Made by a program: the position numbers and the translations under genes
Source of the DNA: Halanaerobium kushneri
Lineage (GTDB): Bacteria; Bacillota; Halanaerobiia; Halanaerobiales; Halanaerobiaceae
Assembly (NCBI RefSeq): GCF_900156285.1
Contig: NZ_FTNC01000028.1
Location: forward strand, 1 to 33,047
Length of the DNA stretch: 33,047 bases
Reading direction: 5' to 3'
Notes under the pieces: model-generated
Told to the model about the DNA's origin: nothing
Databases searched by the model: none
The model's input: the letters and a program-made list of their open reading frames with translations, nothing else
In this document: one piece after another, positions 1 through 14,686 of the stretch
Layout: each line of letters begins with the position of its first letter
Numbering within the stretch: position 1 is the first letter of the stretch

Positions 1-81
1 ATTACCATCATTATTGCTGTCACCATTACCATTAACATTACCATCAATGTTACTGTCAATGGTACCATCAACATTGCCATC
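1..81. repeat. Degenerate RMYRKY hexamer array, left copy
   Basis: Read from base 1 on the plus strand, 27 consecutive triplets all have the form purine-N-pyrimidine. They alternate between an [A/G][A/C][C/T] triplet and an [A/G][T/G][C/T] triplet, with one exception (ATT at 10-12). The units are ACCATT, AACATT, ACCATC, AATGTT and similar. The consensus RMYRKY is its own reverse complement, so both strands show the same pattern. It belongs to the same family as the array at 1312-1611 and probably continues past the left edge. Confidence 0.85.
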
Positions 82-192
82 ATTTTTTTTATTTTCTTTA
101 TCTTTAGACTTGCTCTTTTCTTTTTTTTCTTTGATATCATTACTAATTTCTTTAAATCTTTTATCATTTTTCTCTTCTGCATTTTTAGACAA
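1..192 (-). CDS. Low-complexity protein encoded directly after parA, partial (runs off left edge)
   Basis: A minus-strand reading frame stays open from a TTG at 190-192 to the window edge (64 codons). The TTG overlaps the parA stop (TTGTCTAA) and follows a GGTGGAG ribosome binding site. Residues 2-36 are strongly charged (SKNAEEKNDKRFKEIS, then Lys/Glu-rich). The last 27 codons are Asp/Asn/Gly dipeptides (DGNVDGTIDSNIDGNV) and coincide exactly with a hexamer DNA array. The position after parA suggests a ParB- or adaptor-like partner, but no known fold is visible in what remains. An alternative is that only the charged part is a real gene and the array is a DNA site. The stop codon and any DNA-binding domain lie outside the window. 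Confidence 0.5.
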   Translation of the reverse strand, partial: MSKNAEEKNDKRFKEISNDIKEKKEKSKSKDKENKKNDGNVDGTIDSNIDGNVNGNGDSNNDGN

Positions 193-946
193 TTTTCTCC
201 ACCACCCGCTTTAAAACTTTAAAGAACTGGTCTGCTGCTTCTTCATCATATTCAAATACAGTCTTCCCCGCTCTACCAGCTTCAGTTATTTTAACCCTTC
301 TGTTAATCGGTTCTGTTAAAATATCTGGTTCATCGGAGAATATATCTTTTAGAAGCTCTAGATTAGCTTTTGATTCATTTGTCCTAGCATCAAACATATT
401 AGGAATAATCAAAGTAATGAGGTCGCTGCTTAATCTGAGTTCATCTAAGTACTCATATATGTTACCTACGGCTCTTACACTGGCTGACTCAACCTGAACC
501 GGCATAATAATATGGTCTATATAACATAAAACTGCATCATTAACTTTTGTTCTTTGCGGTCCACAATCAAACATAACAAAATCGTAATCCATATCTTCTA
601 GGTCCGATAATATTTCTTCCATAATTATATCTATTCTGGAGTTACGATGTAATTCTGAGTTAATTTTTTCAATGTTATCATTAGGCAAAAGATCTAAATT
701 TTCTCTAGCATTGATTATGCACTCACTTAATTTAGCTGGATAACGAGGATCCATTAAATCGAAAAAAGTATTTTCATAATCCTTTTCAGTAAATCCCAAA
801 AATAAACTGGAATCATTTTGCCCGTCTAAGTCAATCAATAAAACATTAAAGTCTAGTTTTGCTAGTCCATGAGCTAATTGAACTGAAGTAGTGCTTTTTC
901 CTACACCACCTTTATTATTGATCACTGCTATTTTTTTTGGTCCCAC
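185..946 (-). CDS. parA: ParA/Soj-family partition ATPase
   Basis: ParA-family ATPases bind DNA non-specifically as ATP dimers and, with a ParB-type partner and a centromere site, segregate plasmids or other DNA cargo. The protein has 253 residues, the size of short plasmid or chromosomal ParA proteins without an N-terminal HTH. The deviant Walker A motif KGGVGKST is at residues 12-19, the A' motif IDLDGQ at 38-43 and the Walker B strand FVMFDCGPQ at about 123-131. The start is GTG at 944-946, six bases after GGGGG. It is cotranscribed with the small HTH gene 38 bp upstream, and its stop overlaps the start of the low-complexity gene. Family assignment is firm. Its role in plasmid partition rather than another positioning task is inferred from neighbours. 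Confidence 0.92.
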   Translation of the reverse strand: MGPKKIAVINNKGGVGKSTTSVQLAHGLAKLDFNVLLIDLDGQNDSSLFLGFTEKDYENTFFDLMDPRYPAKLSECIINARENLDLLPNDNIEKINSELHRNSRIDIIMEEILSDLEDMDYDFVMFDCGPQRTKVNDAVLCYIDHIIMPVQVESASVRAVGNIYEYLDELRLSSDLITLIIPNMFDARTNESKANLELLKDIFSDEPDILTEPINRRVKITEAGRAGKTVFEYDEEAADQFFKVLKRVVEKIV

Positions 947-984: not shown

Positions 985-1167
985 CTATTTTTCTTGATTA
1001 GATGATGATCTTTCTTCAATAAAATCTAAAAAACTCTTTTCTGTTATACGCCAGGTATTACCAAGCTTAAACCCTTCTAACTTTTTTTCCCTTAAATATC
1101 TGCGTATAGTTTGTTCACTCACTTTAAGCTTTTCTGCTATTTCATCAGGTGTATATATCTCAGGCAT
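985..1167 (-). CDS. Small MerR/excisionase-type helix-turn-helix protein
   Basis: This 60-residue protein is nearly all DNA-binding domain. The opening IYTPDEIAEKLKVSEQTIRRYL is the typical start of the HTH_17/excisionase (winged helix, MerR-like) family, and the wing follows (KLEGFKLGNTWRI). The ATG lies 6 bases after a strong AGGAGGAGG. It is the first gene of a two- or three-gene unit with parA and has its own promoter at 1233-1261. Proteins of this type are transcriptional regulators or recombination directionality factors. Beside parA, and beside a repeat array immediately upstream of its promoter, it could be an autoregulator or the centromere/array-binding factor; that role is inference. 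Confidence 0.85.
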   Translation of the reverse strand: MPEIYTPDEIAEKLKVSEQTIRRYLREKKLEGFKLGNTWRITEKSFLDFIEERSSSNQEK

Positions 1168-1232
1168 ACTGATCCTCCTCCTAAAAATATAGTTTTAAAA
1201 TCTCTTGATACTTATTCATGTTACAATCTAGT

Positions 1233-1261
1233 ATAATACATAATCTATTATATATCAACAA
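1233..1261 (-). promoter_or_regulatory. Sigma-A-type promoter for the HTH-parA unit
   Basis: On the minus strand there is a -35 TTGTTG (1256-1261) and a -10 TATTAT (1233-1238) separated by exactly 17 bases. Transcription would begin near 1226, about 60 bases before the HTH start codon. The -35 is only about 50 bp from the end of the large hexamer array, so proteins bound to the array could affect this promoter. Confidence 0.6.
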
Positions 1262-1311
1262 CTAAATCACTGATTGGAAATTGCTTTTCGTGCTTCTATG
1301 TAGTAATTACT

Positions 1312-1611
1312 GTCACCATTAACATTAACTCTACCATTAATGGTGACAGTAACATTAACATCAATGTTACCATCAATGGTAATGGTAACATCACCATCAA
1401 TTCTACCATTGACATTACCATTAATGTTAACAGTAAAATTAACAGCACCACCAATTCCAATTTCACGACCAATACTAAAGATAGTTTTAATGTTAATTCC
1501 AATATTGCTGTTAACATTGCCATCACCATTAACAGCAATTCTACCATTAATGTTGACATTAACATTAATGGTAATGGTAACATTGACAGTAATATTGATG
1601 GTAATAGCATT
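1312..1611. repeat. Large degenerate hexamer array (RMYRKY)n, about 50 units
   Basis: In the frame starting at 1312, 97 of 100 triplets end in a pyrimidine and 93 begin with a purine. Triplets alternate: 45 of 50 even triplets fit RMY (AAC, ACC, AAT, GAC) and 39 of 50 odd triplets fit RKY (ATT, GTT, GGT, AGT). This gives a strict 6-bp period. Most exceptions fall at 1450-1500, so two cleaner halves flank a degenerate centre. Palindromes such as ACCATTAATGGT recur. Read as protein, either strand gives Asn/Thr-Ile/Val/Gly dipeptides, but neither frame has an ATG/GTG/TTG start with a ribosome binding site. I treat it as DNA structure, not a gene. Confidence 0.85.
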
Positions 1612-1627
1612 TTTTATAATATTCCAA

Positions 1628-1707
1628 AATACATAATTATGCCGTTATGCCAATATGTAAATATGCCATTATGCTTTTACGTAAGTACGTAATTATGCTA
1701 TTACATA
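1628..1707. repeat. Tandem octamer array, ten units in exact 8-bp register
   Basis: Ten consecutive 8-bp units fit NNTAYRYN without exception: AATACATA, ATTATGCC, GTTATGCC, AATATGTA, AATATGCC, ATTATGCT, TTTACGTA, AGTACGTA, ATTATGCT, ATTACATA. The core TAYRY is an alternating pyrimidine-purine tract. The pattern stops abruptly at both ends (TATTCCAA before, TTTTATAA after). It lies 17 bp beyond the hexamer array. The regular spacing suggests a cooperative protein-binding array such as an iteron or partition site; the function is not known. Confidence 0.8.
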
Positions 1708-2252: not shown

Positions 2253-2660
2253 TCATATATTCTCATTTATATGTTTAATATACGAAAGATAATATTTTAT
2301 TAATTTATCAAGATTTTGATAGACAACTTTATCATCTACTTCTTCATACTCATGGACAAGCCTGTTCCTTATTCCTGTGCTGGGAGCAATATCTTTTGCA
2401 AATTCTTTTGATAATATTTCAAGATCAATCAATTCTAGAAAAGAGGAATAATAGTCCTGAGCTGGGTACCTATCTGATTTTTTTATCAGCATATTATTAA
2501 TATCTAATGCTAAATCAATAATCAACTGAATAAGTCGCTCAATAGCATAGCGCTTAAGCTGATCATTTTGATATTCTTTAAAAGTATCAGGTTTGAACTT
2601 TTCCAGTTCACTAATATATTTTTCCATTTTTATGAGTTTATTTATGATTATTTCATTCAT
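2253..2660 (-). CDS. hepT: HepT-family RNase toxin (type VII toxin-antitoxin)
   Basis: HepT toxins are HEPN-domain RNases that are silenced when the MntA partner adds AMP to a tyrosine next to the active site. This 135-residue, all-helical protein carries the diagnostic RX4HXY motif as RNRLVHEY, with Arg98, His103 and Tyr105. The length fits the family. I chose the ATG at 2658-2660, which overlaps the mntA stop (TGATG), over the TTG one codon earlier. Overlap with mntA implies translational coupling and balanced dosage. All catalytic and AMPylation-site residues are present, so the toxin looks functional. Confidence 0.9.
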   Translation of the reverse strand: MNEIIINKLIKMEKYISELEKFKPDTFKEYQNDQLKRYAIERLIQLIIDLALDINNMLIKKSDRYPAQDYYSSFLELIDLEILSKEFAKDIAPSTGIRNRLVHEYEEVDDKVVYQNLDKLIKYYLSYIKHINENI

Positions 2661-3049
2661 CAATATCTTGCCTCAATTTTTTTCTCTAAAGTTTTTCTTC
2701 TATCATCATATAAAAACTTAGTATCAGCATAAATCCCTGCTGCATAGATACTGAACTTTTCAAATTTTTCTTCACTACCATATAATAGCTTTCCTTTTTT
2801 TGCGATTTCTACTTTTAAAATAGGTTCAGCTTTAGTTAGATTAACAAGATCAATATCAGCACGCTGATAAAATTGAGATAATTCATTTAAAAGCTCCATT
2901 TCTTCTGACTCCGTTAGAAACTCAGAACATTTATATCCAAGATCAAGGTCGCTTCCTTTTTTATTATTGTCATCGGCATAGGAACCAAACACAACAAATA
3001 ATTCGATATTATACTTATTAATAATATTGGTGGGTACTTCTAAATTCAT
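2660..3049 (-). CDS. mntA: MntA-type minimal nucleotidyltransferase antitoxin
   Basis: MntA proteins transfer AMP from ATP to the HepT toxin and so neutralise it. The 129-residue protein has the exact nucleotidyltransferase signature GSX10DXD: Gly22-Ser23, then Asp34 and Asp36 (GSYADDNNKKGSDLD). A third acidic strand follows around AEPILKVEI/ADIDLVNL. The ATG at 3049 follows GGGGTG. It is the upstream partner of hepT with a one-base stop/start overlap. The antitoxin-first order is common for this pair. On established family knowledge the product is cytoplasmic. Confidence 0.9.
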   Translation of the reverse strand: MNLEVPTNIINKYNIELFVVFGSYADDNNKKGSDLDLGYKCSEFLTESEEMELLNELSQFYQRADIDLVNLTKAEPILKVEIAKKGKLLYGSEEKFEKFSIYAAGIYADTKFLYDDRRKTLEKKIEARY

Positions 3050-4632: not shown

Positions 4633-5226
4633 ATGAATTATCGTCAAGATTTAAACAATTTGATTAAAAAGAATGATGGCCTTATTTTAACTAAAGAATT
4701 GAAAGAAGAGGATATTCCTAGAGAATATTTATCTATTTTTTTAGAAGAAGATAAGTTGGAGAGAATCAAAAGAGGAGTTTATACAACTCCTGATACTTTT
4801 AGTGATGAAATGTATATTATCCAGCAAAAAAATACCAGATTGATTTACTCTCATGAAACAGCTCTTTATCTACATGATTTAACTGATAGAGATCCTCTAG
4901 AATATACAGCAACTGCTCCTTATGGTTATCATAACCCTTATTTAAAAGACGAAAATATTAAAGTTCATACAGTTAAAAAAGAACTTCATTTACTTGGTGT
5001 TATGGAAAAGGAAACTATCTACGGCAGAAAAATCAAAGTATATAATAAAGAAAGAACTATCTGTGATATTTTAAAAGATCGCAATAATATTGATATTTCA
5101 ACGGTTAATGGAGCTATTAGAAAATATTTAAATAGTAAAGATAAAGATATTCATTTACTTTTGAAGTATGGAGATAAATTAAAAATCGGCAGTGTCTTAA
5201 GAAAATATTTGGAGATGTTTGTATGA
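4633..5226 (+). CDS. abiEi: AbiEi-type antitoxin / transcriptional regulator (type IV toxin-antitoxin)
   Basis: AbiEi proteins have an N-terminal winged helix-turn-helix that represses the operon and a C-terminal antitoxin domain. Here residues 1-55 fit the winged helix (YRQDLNNLIKKNDGLILTKE ending in LERIKRGVYTTPD, the typical AbiEi_4 turn). The middle carries the conserved YSHETALYLHDLTDR and the C-terminal part YNKERTICDIL. Length of 197 residues is standard. The ATG follows GAGGTGG. Its last four bases overlap the abiEii start (ATGA), the normal layout for this bicistronic phage-defence/stability module. Confidence 0.9.
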   Translation: MNYRQDLNNLIKKNDGLILTKELKEEDIPREYLSIFLEEDKLERIKRGVYTTPDTFSDEMYIIQQKNTRLIYSHETALYLHDLTDRDPLEYTATAPYGYHNPYLKDENIKVHTVKKELHLLGVMEKETIYGRKIKVYNKERTICDILKDRNNIDISTVNGAIRKYLNSKDKDIHLLLKYGDKLKIGSVLRKYLEMFV

Positions 5227-6071
5227 AAAACTTAATGCAATTAAAAGACTTAATTAAAAATTTGGCCAAAGAAAAAAATGTTAACAGTCAGGTGCTTTTA
5301 AGAAATTATATGATGCAGCGATTATTATTAAAGATTGCTAATTCTGATTATAAAAATAATTTTATTCTTAAAGGTGGTATGCTGGTTGCTGATCTAGTAG
5401 GTATTGAATCAAGAAGTACAGTAGATATGGATCTAACTATAAAATCATTTAGACTAAGCAAAGAAAATATTACAGAAGTTTTTACGGAAATATTTTCAGC
5501 CAAAACCGAAGATGAAATTGAGTTCAAACTAAAACAGGTAGACAGTATAAGAGAAGAAGCTGACTATAATGGATTTAGACTAGCTATTCTAGCATCAATG
5601 GGCAAAGCAAGAATTCCTTTAAAAATAGATTTAACAACAGGAGATAAACTCACTCCATCTGAAATTAATTACAGATATCAGATATTATTTGAAGATGAAA
5701 AAATAGATATTTTATCTTATAATTTAGAAACTCTACTGGCGGAAAAATTAGAAACTATTGTTAGCAGATCAAAGACAAACACCAGAATGCGTGACTTTTA
5801 TGATGTATATATTTTAGCTTTGAAGTTTAAGAAAAAGATAAATACTGAATTGTTAGCAGTTGCTTTAATTGAAACTTCTAAAAATCGTAAGACTTATAAG
5901 GCTATAAAAAATGGTAAGGAGATTCTTATTGAAGTTTTCAAAAGTGAAATTATTTTAGAACATTGGAATAGGTATAGGAAAAAATTTAAATATGCAGAGG
6001 AAATTGAGTTTTCCAGTCTGGAAGAACAGATAATTAAGTTATGGAATGAAATCGAAGATAATGGTATTTAG
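5223..6071 (+). CDS. abiEii: AbiEii-type nucleotidyltransferase toxin
   Basis: AbiEii/AbiGii-family toxins are nucleotidyltransferases that shut down growth, classically giving abortive phage infection. The 282-residue protein has the motifs in order: FILKGGMLV (KGG at 50-52), RSTVDMDL (Arg64, Asp68, Asp70), the central LKIDLTTGD strand, and the C-terminal ETLLAEKLETIV...RMRDFYDVYIL block with the conserved Lys and Arg/Asp/Tyr. All expected active-site residues are visible, so it looks intact. Translational coupling to abiEi by a 4-bp overlap supports the pair. The stretch to the next gene (6072-6193) holds nothing I can name. Confidence 0.9.
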   Translation: MKNLMQLKDLIKNLAKEKNVNSQVLLRNYMMQRLLLKIANSDYKNNFILKGGMLVADLVGIESRSTVDMDLTIKSFRLSKENITEVFTEIFSAKTEDEIEFKLKQVDSIREEADYNGFRLAILASMGKARIPLKIDLTTGDKLTPSEINYRYQILFEDEKIDILSYNLETLLAEKLETIVSRSKTNTRMRDFYDVYILALKFKKKINTELLAVALIETSKNRKTYKAIKNGKEILIEVFKSEIILEHWNRYRKKFKYAEEIEFSSLEEQIIKLWNEIEDNGI

Positions 6072-7728: not shown

Positions 7729-8394
7729 ATGCCAAAAAGAGGAAGAAGAATACCTGAAGTGCTGAGCGAGGAAGAACAGAAAAAATTATTAGAAGTTTTC
7801 AATGAAAGATATCCAACTGCATTGAGAAATAAAACTATGATCAGGTTAATGCTGAAAGCTGGATTAAGATTAGCAGAAACTTTAAATCTAAAATGGAGTG
7901 ATATTAATTTTCCTGCTGCTAAATTATCAGTTGTCGAGGGTAAAGGCAGAAAAGATAGAAATCTCTGGCTTGGAGAAAAAACTTTGAACCAATTGGGTAA
8001 GTGGCGAGAAAAGCAGCATGAAATTTTAACTGAAAAGAAGTTGAATAATGAAGGCAATTTAGTTTTTACTACTTTAACAGGAAATCAGCTAAATGAAGCT
8101 AATGTAAGAAAGATGGTTTATAGATATGCAGAAAAAGCAGGTATCCAGGAAGAAGTTGAAAAAAAGTATCGGGATAAGGAAGGAAATGAGTTAGAAGAGA
8201 CATACTTACAGAAGAAGGTAAGCCCCCATGTGTTAAGACATACCTTTGCTACTGAACTATATAGGATGACAAACGATTTAAGGAAGGTTCAGAAAACTTT
8301 AGGACACAGTAGTATTCAAACTACTATGATTTATACCCACCTGGTGGATGAGGAACTGGAGAATGACATGAAGAAGCTGGATGAAAAGTATTAA
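7729..8394 (+). CDS. Short tyrosine recombinase/integrase lacking the N-terminal core-binding domain
   Basis: The protein (221 residues) is essentially only the catalytic domain of the XerC/XerD/phage integrase family. The full catalytic set is visible: Arg47 (AGLRLAE), Lys72 (GKGRKDR), His167 and Arg170 (HVLRH), His193 (LGHSS) and the nucleophile Tyr202 (YTHL). Typical Xer or integrase proteins have about 300 residues with a SAM-like DNA-binding domain in front; here it is absent, as in FimB/FimE-type inversion recombinases. An AAGGGG precedes the start by 13 bases. It is convergent and overlaps by four bases with the truncated glycosylphosphotransferase, so it marks the edge of the accessory region. 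It appears catalytically intact. Confidence 0.9.
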   Translation: MPKRGRRIPEVLSEEEQKKLLEVFNERYPTALRNKTMIRLMLKAGLRLAETLNLKWSDINFPAAKLSVVEGKGRKDRNLWLGEKTLNQLGKWREKQHEILTEKKLNNEGNLVFTTLTGNQLNEANVRKMVYRYAEKAGIQEEVEKKYRDKEGNELEETYLQKKVSPHVLRHTFATELYRMTNDLRKVQKTLGHSSIQTTMIYTHLVDEELENDMKKLDEKY

Positions 8395-14104: not shown

Positions 14105-14686
14105 CTATTTTAAAATAAGATCCAGCACCATTTTAACTGATTTTTCAAGACTTAAGATTTCAGTATCAACTATCAGTTCAGGGGCTTCTGGGTCTTCGTA
14201 AGGAGCTGAAATACCAGTGAAATTTTCAATCTCACCGTTTTTAGCCTTTTCGTAAAGCCCTTTAGGATCCCGCTCAGCACAGGTCTCTACACTAGCTTTA
14301 ACATAAATTTCTTTAAAGTTATCTGCTCCTGCAGCCTGGCGGGCAGCTTCTCTGCCAGCTTTATAGGGAGAAATAAAGGAAGCCAGGGTAATCAATCCGG
14401 CATCGGCAAAAAGAGCAGCTACCTGACCGATGCGGCGGATATTCTCTTTTCTTTCCTCAGCAGTAAAGCCGAGATCTTTATTTAAACCAAAGCGCAGGTT
14501 ATCACCATCAAGGCGGTAAGAGGCTTTACCGCGTCGGTAAAGTTCTTTTTCCACCTCAACGGCAATAGTAGATTTACCGGAGCCCGAAAGTCCGGTAAAC
14601 CATAAGACTATGCCCTGCTGTCCTAAAAGTTCCTCCCGAGCAGCCTTATCAATTTTACCTGAATGCCACTTTATATTATCTACCAT
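14105..14686 (-). CDS. cysC: Adenylylsulfate (APS) kinase
   Basis: CysC phosphorylates APS to PAPS, the universal sulfate donor. The 193-residue protein has the Walker A motif GLSGSGKST at about 33-41 and the [12 protein letters not shown] substrate loop. The [19 protein letters not shown] helix, [14 protein letters not shown] with the catalytic serine, and the [12 protein letters not shown] and [14 protein letters not shown] motifs follow. Every hallmark is present and length is standard. It overlaps the cysN end by 7 bp and is therefore translationally coupled. It supplies the intact kinase activity that the degenerate tail of the neighbouring CysN lacks. Confidence 0.95.

Follow-up and report, generated by a model that had tools for sequence, protein, structure and literature searches.

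Partition systems of type Ib are described as comprising a ParA, a small RHH protein with a flexible N-terminal tail and an upstream centromere of direct and inverted repeats (PMC5016525). In the parFGH system of TP228, RHH dimers (ParG) are portrayed as coating the centromere parH, which consists of arrayed degenerate boxes (PMC7308502). In the delta-omega system of pSM19035, contiguous short sites in direct and inverted orientation are bound by RHH dimers and overlap plasmid promoters, including those of parA and parB, and full activation of ParA is stated to need at least four contiguous 7-bp sites (PMC9499535). The archaeal SegAB cassette joins a ParA-like ATPase to an RHH protein whose palindromic binding sites lie upstream of the cassette (PMC12284271).

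The stretch of DNA analysed here (33,047 bp; hereafter, the window) is an entire contig of the Halanaerobium kushneri assembly (G000; 3.2 Mb, 53 contigs). Upstream of an HTH gene and the parA operon it carries a degenerate hexamer array of consensus RMYRKY (approximately 1306-1611, on neither strand in particular), which we propose as the main centromere; judging from its sequence and setting, this array is probably parS, the centromere on which a type Ib-like plasmid partition system acts. The same flavour recurs in a second array, overlooked in the first-pass annotation, which is embedded in the linker region of the operon's second gene (minus strand; residues ..NDGNVDGTIDSNIDGNVNGNGDSNNDGN..), where it is cut by the contig end; it spans 1-84 as an RNY run of 28 triplets and 1-107 in a looser scan.

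Like TP228 parFGH, this locus brings together ParA, an RHH protein and an array of degenerate units. parH, however, is made of tetramer boxes with AT-rich spacers, whereas the window array is a contiguous 6/12-bp pattern of base classes, continuous and without evident spacers, and both in the window and in the Halanaerobium saccharolyticum WC1 locus a second array lies inside the parB gene. Contiguous short repeats, direct and inverted, are also found in the parS of pSM19035, which in contrast is built from 7-bp WATCACW heptads, 7-10 per site. Contiguous WATCACW sites are absent from the window array, which contains no heptad (one occurs in 1-2446, at 1265, against 2.2 expected) and shows no periodicity at lag 7 (z -1.3). 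SegAB is similar in its ParA-type ATPase gene accompanied by an RHH gene, with binding sites ahead of the cassette, and differs from the window array in that its sites are defined 13-bp palindromes spread over the chromosome (PMC12284271). The embedded arrays of the window and WC1, situated within the linker of an RHH gene, also differ from parS-359 of Bacillus subtilis. The latter is a single site, associated with a chromosomal HTH-type ParB. It has been described as a centromere site within a parB gene (PMC4442127). A single parS within parB is hence already known, and the open-access PMC literature, with subscription papers largely outside it, yielded no report of an RHH centromere array inside a parB linker, which is a weak indication that the latter arrangement is new.

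Base classes, periodicity and symmetry of the upstream array

Among the 100 triplets of positions 1312-1611, 93 have a purine in first position and 97 a pyrimidine in third position, and 279 of the 300 bases match RMYRKY in its best phase, compared with a mean of 165 and a maximum of 197 when the array itself was simulated 200 times with an order-2 Markov model. Among its 50 hexamers, 30 are distinct. These counts agree with the first-pass annotation, which had described a purine-N-pyrimidine pattern with 97 pyrimidine third positions and diverse individual hexamers. The same source had called the alternation of RMY and RKY triplets strict, but it holds in 80 of 99 steps, with the breaks concentrated in mid-array, and is better termed strong. 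Its claim that both strands carry the same pattern stands: inverted 6-mer pairs in the array (284) are nearly as numerous as direct ones (289) and exceed the mean of 137 in phase-preserving shuffles, none of 1000 shuffles being as high, so that the strand symmetry goes beyond what the class pattern gives.

The autocorrelation suggested alongside these claims peaks at lags 6, 12, 18 and 24 (z 9.0-9.8; 9.4 at lag 6 and 9.8 at lag 12), with a z of only 2.0 at lag 3. Runs of at least nine RNY triplets occur five times in the 33-kb window, all of them within the array at 1-84 and the upstream array, and a lag-12 scan of the window detected four stretches above z 4.5, namely both arrays, a different repeat block at 1681-1861, and positions 14221-14391.

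Immediately beyond the upstream array lies a second, different repeat block with a 24-bp period and TACGTA/ATATGCC motifs (TACGTAAATATGCC-type; 1614-1704, on neither strand in particular). Sequence similar to this block separates three arrays in the genome G003 (L062), and a further block of GTATACG-type repeats is present at 1765-1799, between the array and the next gene. A search of 1-2300 against Rfam returned nothing at gathering score, and an RNA element was rejected. Discrete palindromes were likewise discarded as candidates: at 10 of 12 matches with a core of 7 of 8, four are found in the window and none in the arrays.

The par operon and its relatives

Proceeding from the array along the minus strand, the window encodes a promoter-like site, a 60-aa HTH gene, ParA and an RHH gene. 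The promoter-like site (TTGATA-17-TATACT, sigma-70-like; 1230-1258, minus strand) lies between array and HTH gene, some 50 bp from the array end, and is unchanged in WC1; it is a consensus match only, and 1150-2000 contains seven such sites against 6.7 expected from shuffles. The HTH gene (985-1167, minus strand) encodes an excisionase-type protein (HTH_17) that is found, at E<=1e-10, in 3 of the 59 genomes of the class, these being the three same-genus genomes that harbor this parA at 75-100% identity. ParA (185-946, minus strand; 253 aa) is type Ib-like, with its Walker motif at residues 11-19 and no room for an N-terminal HTH. It scores above the Pfam cut-offs for AAA_31 and CbiA and obtains 87.9 bits with the NCBIfam ParA_partition model, below the 180-bit cut-off.

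Type Ib was defined by a small ParA devoid of an N-terminal HTH, an RHH protein behind parA with a flexible N-terminal tail bearing a conserved arginine, and an upstream repeat centromere. The window ParA is of this kind, the RHH gene is found behind parA in WC1, its window counterpart being cut by the contig end, and direct and inverted repeats precede the operon, as a feature of the sequence alone. Of the RHH (parB-like) gene, the window preserves the first 64 codons (1-192, minus strand), with a TTG start overlapping the end of ParA and the remainder beyond the contig end. The embedded array is the last part of this truncated gene, and the assembly may therefore have broken there; the remainder was absent from a search of G000, whereas the same query detected it in G009, a genome of the same genus with an identical ParA on a 37,335-bp contig.

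The complete operon is available in the WC1 locus (L036; NZ_QAXS01000030.1), with a ParA 100% identical to that of the window followed by a complete RHH gene (L036 5755-6246). Array, promoter-like site, HTH gene, ParA and RHH gene follow each other there, the array being upstream of the operon as in the window, and across the 37-kb WC1 contig the array pattern is confined to the upstream region and the RHH linker. Type Ib partition systems have this layout, and the array occupies the centromere position. The WC1 RHH gene encodes a lysine-rich head, a linker predicted to be disordered and an RHH tail, and the N-terminal tail and linker of the protein are lysine-rich with low predicted order. 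RHH_1 is recognized in it at 25.2 bits (Pfam cut-off 20.5), and a profile of the RHH family matches CopG in the PDB (E 3.5e-4). The AlphaFold2 model (mean pLDDT 62.6) is confident in the C-terminal part only, with the linker at about 50, and Foldseek returned weak matches for it, the best being CdbA (E 0.45), with CopG in fourth place.

Elsewhere in the window, toxin-antitoxin-like pairs are located at 2253-3049 and 4633-6071 (HepT with a Polbeta-type nucleotidyltransferase; AbiEi/AbiEii), and a XerC/D-like tyrosine recombinase (7729-8394) separates the par region from a polysaccharide gene cluster, identified by eye. Neither the window contig nor the WC1 contig has terminal repeats.

Relatives of ParA at E<=1e-60 occur in 7 of the 59 genomes of the class, at 10 places, and relatives at E<=1e-75 in 7 of 391 genomes sampled from the class to which L037 belongs, the genome of L037 itself included. 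Six ParA loci, among them WC1, came from a genome contig search. Viral contigs contributed relatives of 60% (L045/L046) and 52% identity (L076), L045 and L046 being one par locus present twice, in opposite orientation, in a single viral contig of 170,948 bp. Identity to the window ParA stays under 60% in every plasmid record among the best 5000 listed and in all 124 phage records, and the L037 ParA found nothing in the plasmid collection at E 1e-50. An RHH-like end was recognized, by alignment or by eye, in the next gene of L036, L008-L012, L037-L039, L041-L045, L076 and L163; that of L037 looks disrupted, and most of these genes begin with a lysine-rich stretch, L010 excepted. Of seven RHH genes submitted to Pfam, those of L036, L008 and L011 are above the RHH cut-off, those of L009, L045 and L041 are sub-threshold, and that of L163 has no match. 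L040 and L164-L168 were excluded, being ParA loci with a CheW-type neighbor, assigned by Pfam CheW in L040 and L164 and by eye in L165-L168. Their CheW-domain genes, behind the related ParA, begin with a lysine-rich stretch like that of the RHH genes, which may be a tail that contacts ParA and has been redeployed in a chemosensory setting.

The first-pass annotation had pointed to other parA genes as a place to look for the pattern, and repeat arrays do recur upstream in several relatives, with other sequences. By eye, they are TTGTAAACATAAATGTAAA-like in L009, TTTATTGTGATTATT-like in L042 and L043 and GTGCAAGTGCTGGTAATG-like in L045, with a short AACACAACACA-like block upstream of parA in L011, L012 and L044. 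G053, G057 and G058 have repeat blocks directly upstream of parA. G003 contains three arrays of AGTACTGAAGTTAAT flavour beside the same flanking genes; a parA of this kind was not found in that genome, where the contig starts at that point. In G010, a sister species (ParA 75% identical), eight discrete RNY sites of about 24 bp take the place of the array, 21-45 bases long and with starts 67-110 bp apart; within the first 9 kb of its contig, RNY runs of at least seven triplets number eight, all of them upstream of the HTH gene.

With stretches delimited by eye, lag 12 ranks among the strongest in the window, WC1, G003 (three of three blocks), L045, L042 and L043, L009 peaks at lag 6 and then 12, and L008 at lag 6; with its peak at lag 11 in L010 and at lag 7 in L044, the period is not universally 6/12. 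Upstream array boundaries were set by eye; a lag-12 measure free of that choice was taken over 900 bases upstream and 700 bases downstream. Of the 16 family loci, three (L036, L042, L045) reach a z of at least 4.5 upstream, compared with 0/23 and 2/55 in two sets of other ParA loci and 0/6 ParA-CheW loci, and five (L036, L037, L041, L163, L045) do so downstream, compared with 0/23, 4/52 and 0/6, respectively. Lag-12 values of the family loci differ from the first two control sets with Mann-Whitney probabilities of 6e-4 and 1e-4. One of the four viral controls with a downstream signal, L080, has a GTAAAC-type linker and upstream repeats and resembles the family. No array is present in L038 and L076, and L039 attains a lag-12 z of only 4.2.

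Linker codons and array sequence

Linkers were recoded 2000 times with the protein unchanged, following the codon use of stop-free window stretches of at least 120 codons for WC1 and of the own ParA for other loci, and 7-mers common to the linker and its own upstream array were counted. The WC1 linker shares 69 such 7-mers with its array, against a mean of 30 after recoding, and none of the 2000 recodings reaches 69. The same outcome (0/2000) was obtained for L045 (36 against 10), L009 (37 against 18), L012 (17 against 4) and the truncated window linker (64 against 17), and L011 gave 1/2000 (17 against 6). Results were weaker for L042 (19/2000), L010 (26/2000), L043 (98/2000) and L044 (118/2000). 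The loci tested are partly non-independent, with L011, L012 and L044 close kin, as are L042 and L043. The coupling fails in L008, which has no linker array (1140/2000), and in L080 the flavour is alike by eye, yet the codon test is weak (134-230 of 2000; 170/2000 in one run).

A stricter control, also with 2000 replicates and k=7, permuted each linker's own codons among synonymous positions. Permutations reaching the observed count numbered 12 for WC1, 11 for L045, 37 for L009, 85 for L010, 107 for L012, 109 for L043, 336 for L011, 551 for L008, 826 for L044 and 1445 for L042. This much weaker signal indicates that the coupling derives largely from which codons are used and less from their order.

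Each of ten linkers was also scored against every one of the ten arrays, with codon use taken from the ParA of its own locus. This matrix omits L037, L038, L039, L040, L041, L076 and L163, with no defined upstream array, as well as L046, which shares the contig of L045, and the truncated window, and retains L008 and L010 with broad upstream stretches (650 and 590 bases). The own array has the highest z for six linkers (L036 6.0, L009 3.5, L010 2.4, L012 4.8, L042 2.5, L045 5.2); L011 ranks its kin L012 and L044 above its own, L043 and L044 place their own third, and L008 places its own sixth. Linkers can also be repetitive at the DNA level: L037, L041 and L163, in which no upstream array was seen, contain 136, 184 and 109 direct 7-mer pairs, against means of 46-48 and with 0/1000 recodings as high. 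The L045 linker behaves similarly (38 against 6; 0/1000), L036 is weaker (26/1000), and the other 12 of 17 linkers tested do not exceed their recodings at 5%. At 1-84, the linker codons appear chosen to preserve the DNA pattern. Slippage and copying between arrays could add to the linker-array signal.

Substitutions between the window and WC1 arrays tend to follow the class pattern. R/Y phases differ by 30 transitions and 5 transversions; the M/K phases have 6 transitions, and 11 of their 16 transversions preserve the class. The flanks show 58 transitions and 43 transversions (Fisher, 1.3e-5 between phases and 0.017 for M/K against flanks). The well-aligned 137 bases have five changes, four of them class-preserving, the rest of the alignment being partly poor, and the longest gap spans 66 bases, a multiple of 6. 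Base class thus tends to survive substitution in the array, which argues against one of the competing explanations, namely that the arrays are neutral low-complexity DNA, grown by slippage in the linker and copied upstream as a decayed duplicate or by gene conversion, with no function. A 39-nt near copy (90% identity) common to both window arrays would suit such an origin, as would the capacity of slippage alone to make codons uniform and the drop from recoding to permutation control. Neutral growth, however, sits poorly with equal numbers of inverted and direct repeats, with repeat blocks at the equivalent position in several relatives and with the discrete, spaced sites that G010 retains without a linker array, and we regard it as unlikely.

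The centromere reading and its competitors

A type Ib-like ParA, the RHH protein of WC1, arrays recurring beside parA and, in some relatives, RHH-gene DNA that covaries with them together support a centromere, in keeping with the centromere-like element first suggested beside parA. We infer a putative degenerate centromere, bound by the RHH protein and active in segregation, lying both upstream of parA and inside the parB linker, in which the window array would supply contiguous, weak, symmetric 6/12-bp sites under an RHH coat. RHH dimers might dock side by side on 6-bp steps, in either orientation, with a repeat unit of 12 bp, and many weak degenerate sites could then allow cooperative coating of the array. 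The tails of the coated protein would contact ParA on the nucleoid, leading to segregation, and binding at the upstream array might also repress the operon. Because RNY-type hexamers are devoid of stop codons, such sites can occupy the reading frame of the linker, which would tolerate N/D/G/S/T/I/V residues, its codons following the DNA sites and not the protein alone.

More broadly, and with slightly more reason for doubt than for belief, the loci may represent partition systems of a family whose centromere and binding gene overlap, the parB linker being written in centromere DNA and array and linker codons drifting with the RHH specificity of each lineage; certain loci from Clostridia or related groups (L037, L041, L163) may have no centromere other than the linker array. 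If so, they would provide a natural series of diverged RHH centromeres, each with its matched protein, that might reveal a recognition code, and an instance in which a DNA array influences the codons, and perhaps the residues, of the very protein that binds it. Low-complexity DNA beside parA that may pass as odd ORFs or junk could be explained in this way, and such repeats may break assemblies, perhaps as at the window contig end.

The array could instead be an operator for the 60-aa HTH protein, or serve purely in autoregulation of the par operon, with no role as a centromere. Its end about 50 bp from the promoter-like site and the HTH gene interposed between array and parA in the window, WC1 and G010 are compatible with regulation, but G053, G057 and G058 have repeats upstream of parA and no such HTH protein (E<=1e-10), an extent of 300-390 bp, or eight dispersed sites, would make for a large operator, and a second array lies inside the RHH gene; an operator alone is accordingly improbable. 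We give similarly little credence to replication iterons bound by a plasmid Rep protein. A 504-aa rep-like gene (HTH_36, with sub-threshold similarity to Phage_rep_O) does follow the WC1 operon, but the pattern in WC1 is restricted to the region upstream of the operon and the RHH linker, with none in or behind that gene, and the RHH linker matches the array flavour in several relatives.

Where it is kept, the RMYRKY pattern by itself leaves no room for stop codons in the RNY and NYR frames of either strand, four of the six in all, and open frames there are therefore little evidence of coding. The ORFs listed over the upstream array (1296-1610, minus strand; 1340-1636, plus strand) use non-RNY frames, and in its RNY frames no ORF of at least 50 codons has a start codon, as expected from the earlier claim that no usable start is present. 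A peptide rich in N/I/T/V encoded by the upstream array on either strand, as its two open RNY frames might suggest, was rejected as highly improbable, since the pattern alone excludes stops, in-frame starts are lacking, and the period is 6/12 with little period 3 and inverted repeats as numerous as direct ones. The earlier judgement that a coding explanation is poor therefore holds for the upstream array and fails for its sister at 1-84, which is coding in the RHH gene linker.

Two other ParA loci also have repeats nearby. In L101 (4786-6057), for which Pfam gave nothing above cut-off, ParA is followed by a 423-aa gene composed in part of 12-bp ACGAAAGGACTA-type repeats (TKGLTKGL..). In the GC-rich viral contig L148 (4000-5300), GCCAGC-type repeats occur upstream of parA and again behind a small gene with sub-threshold RHH similarity.
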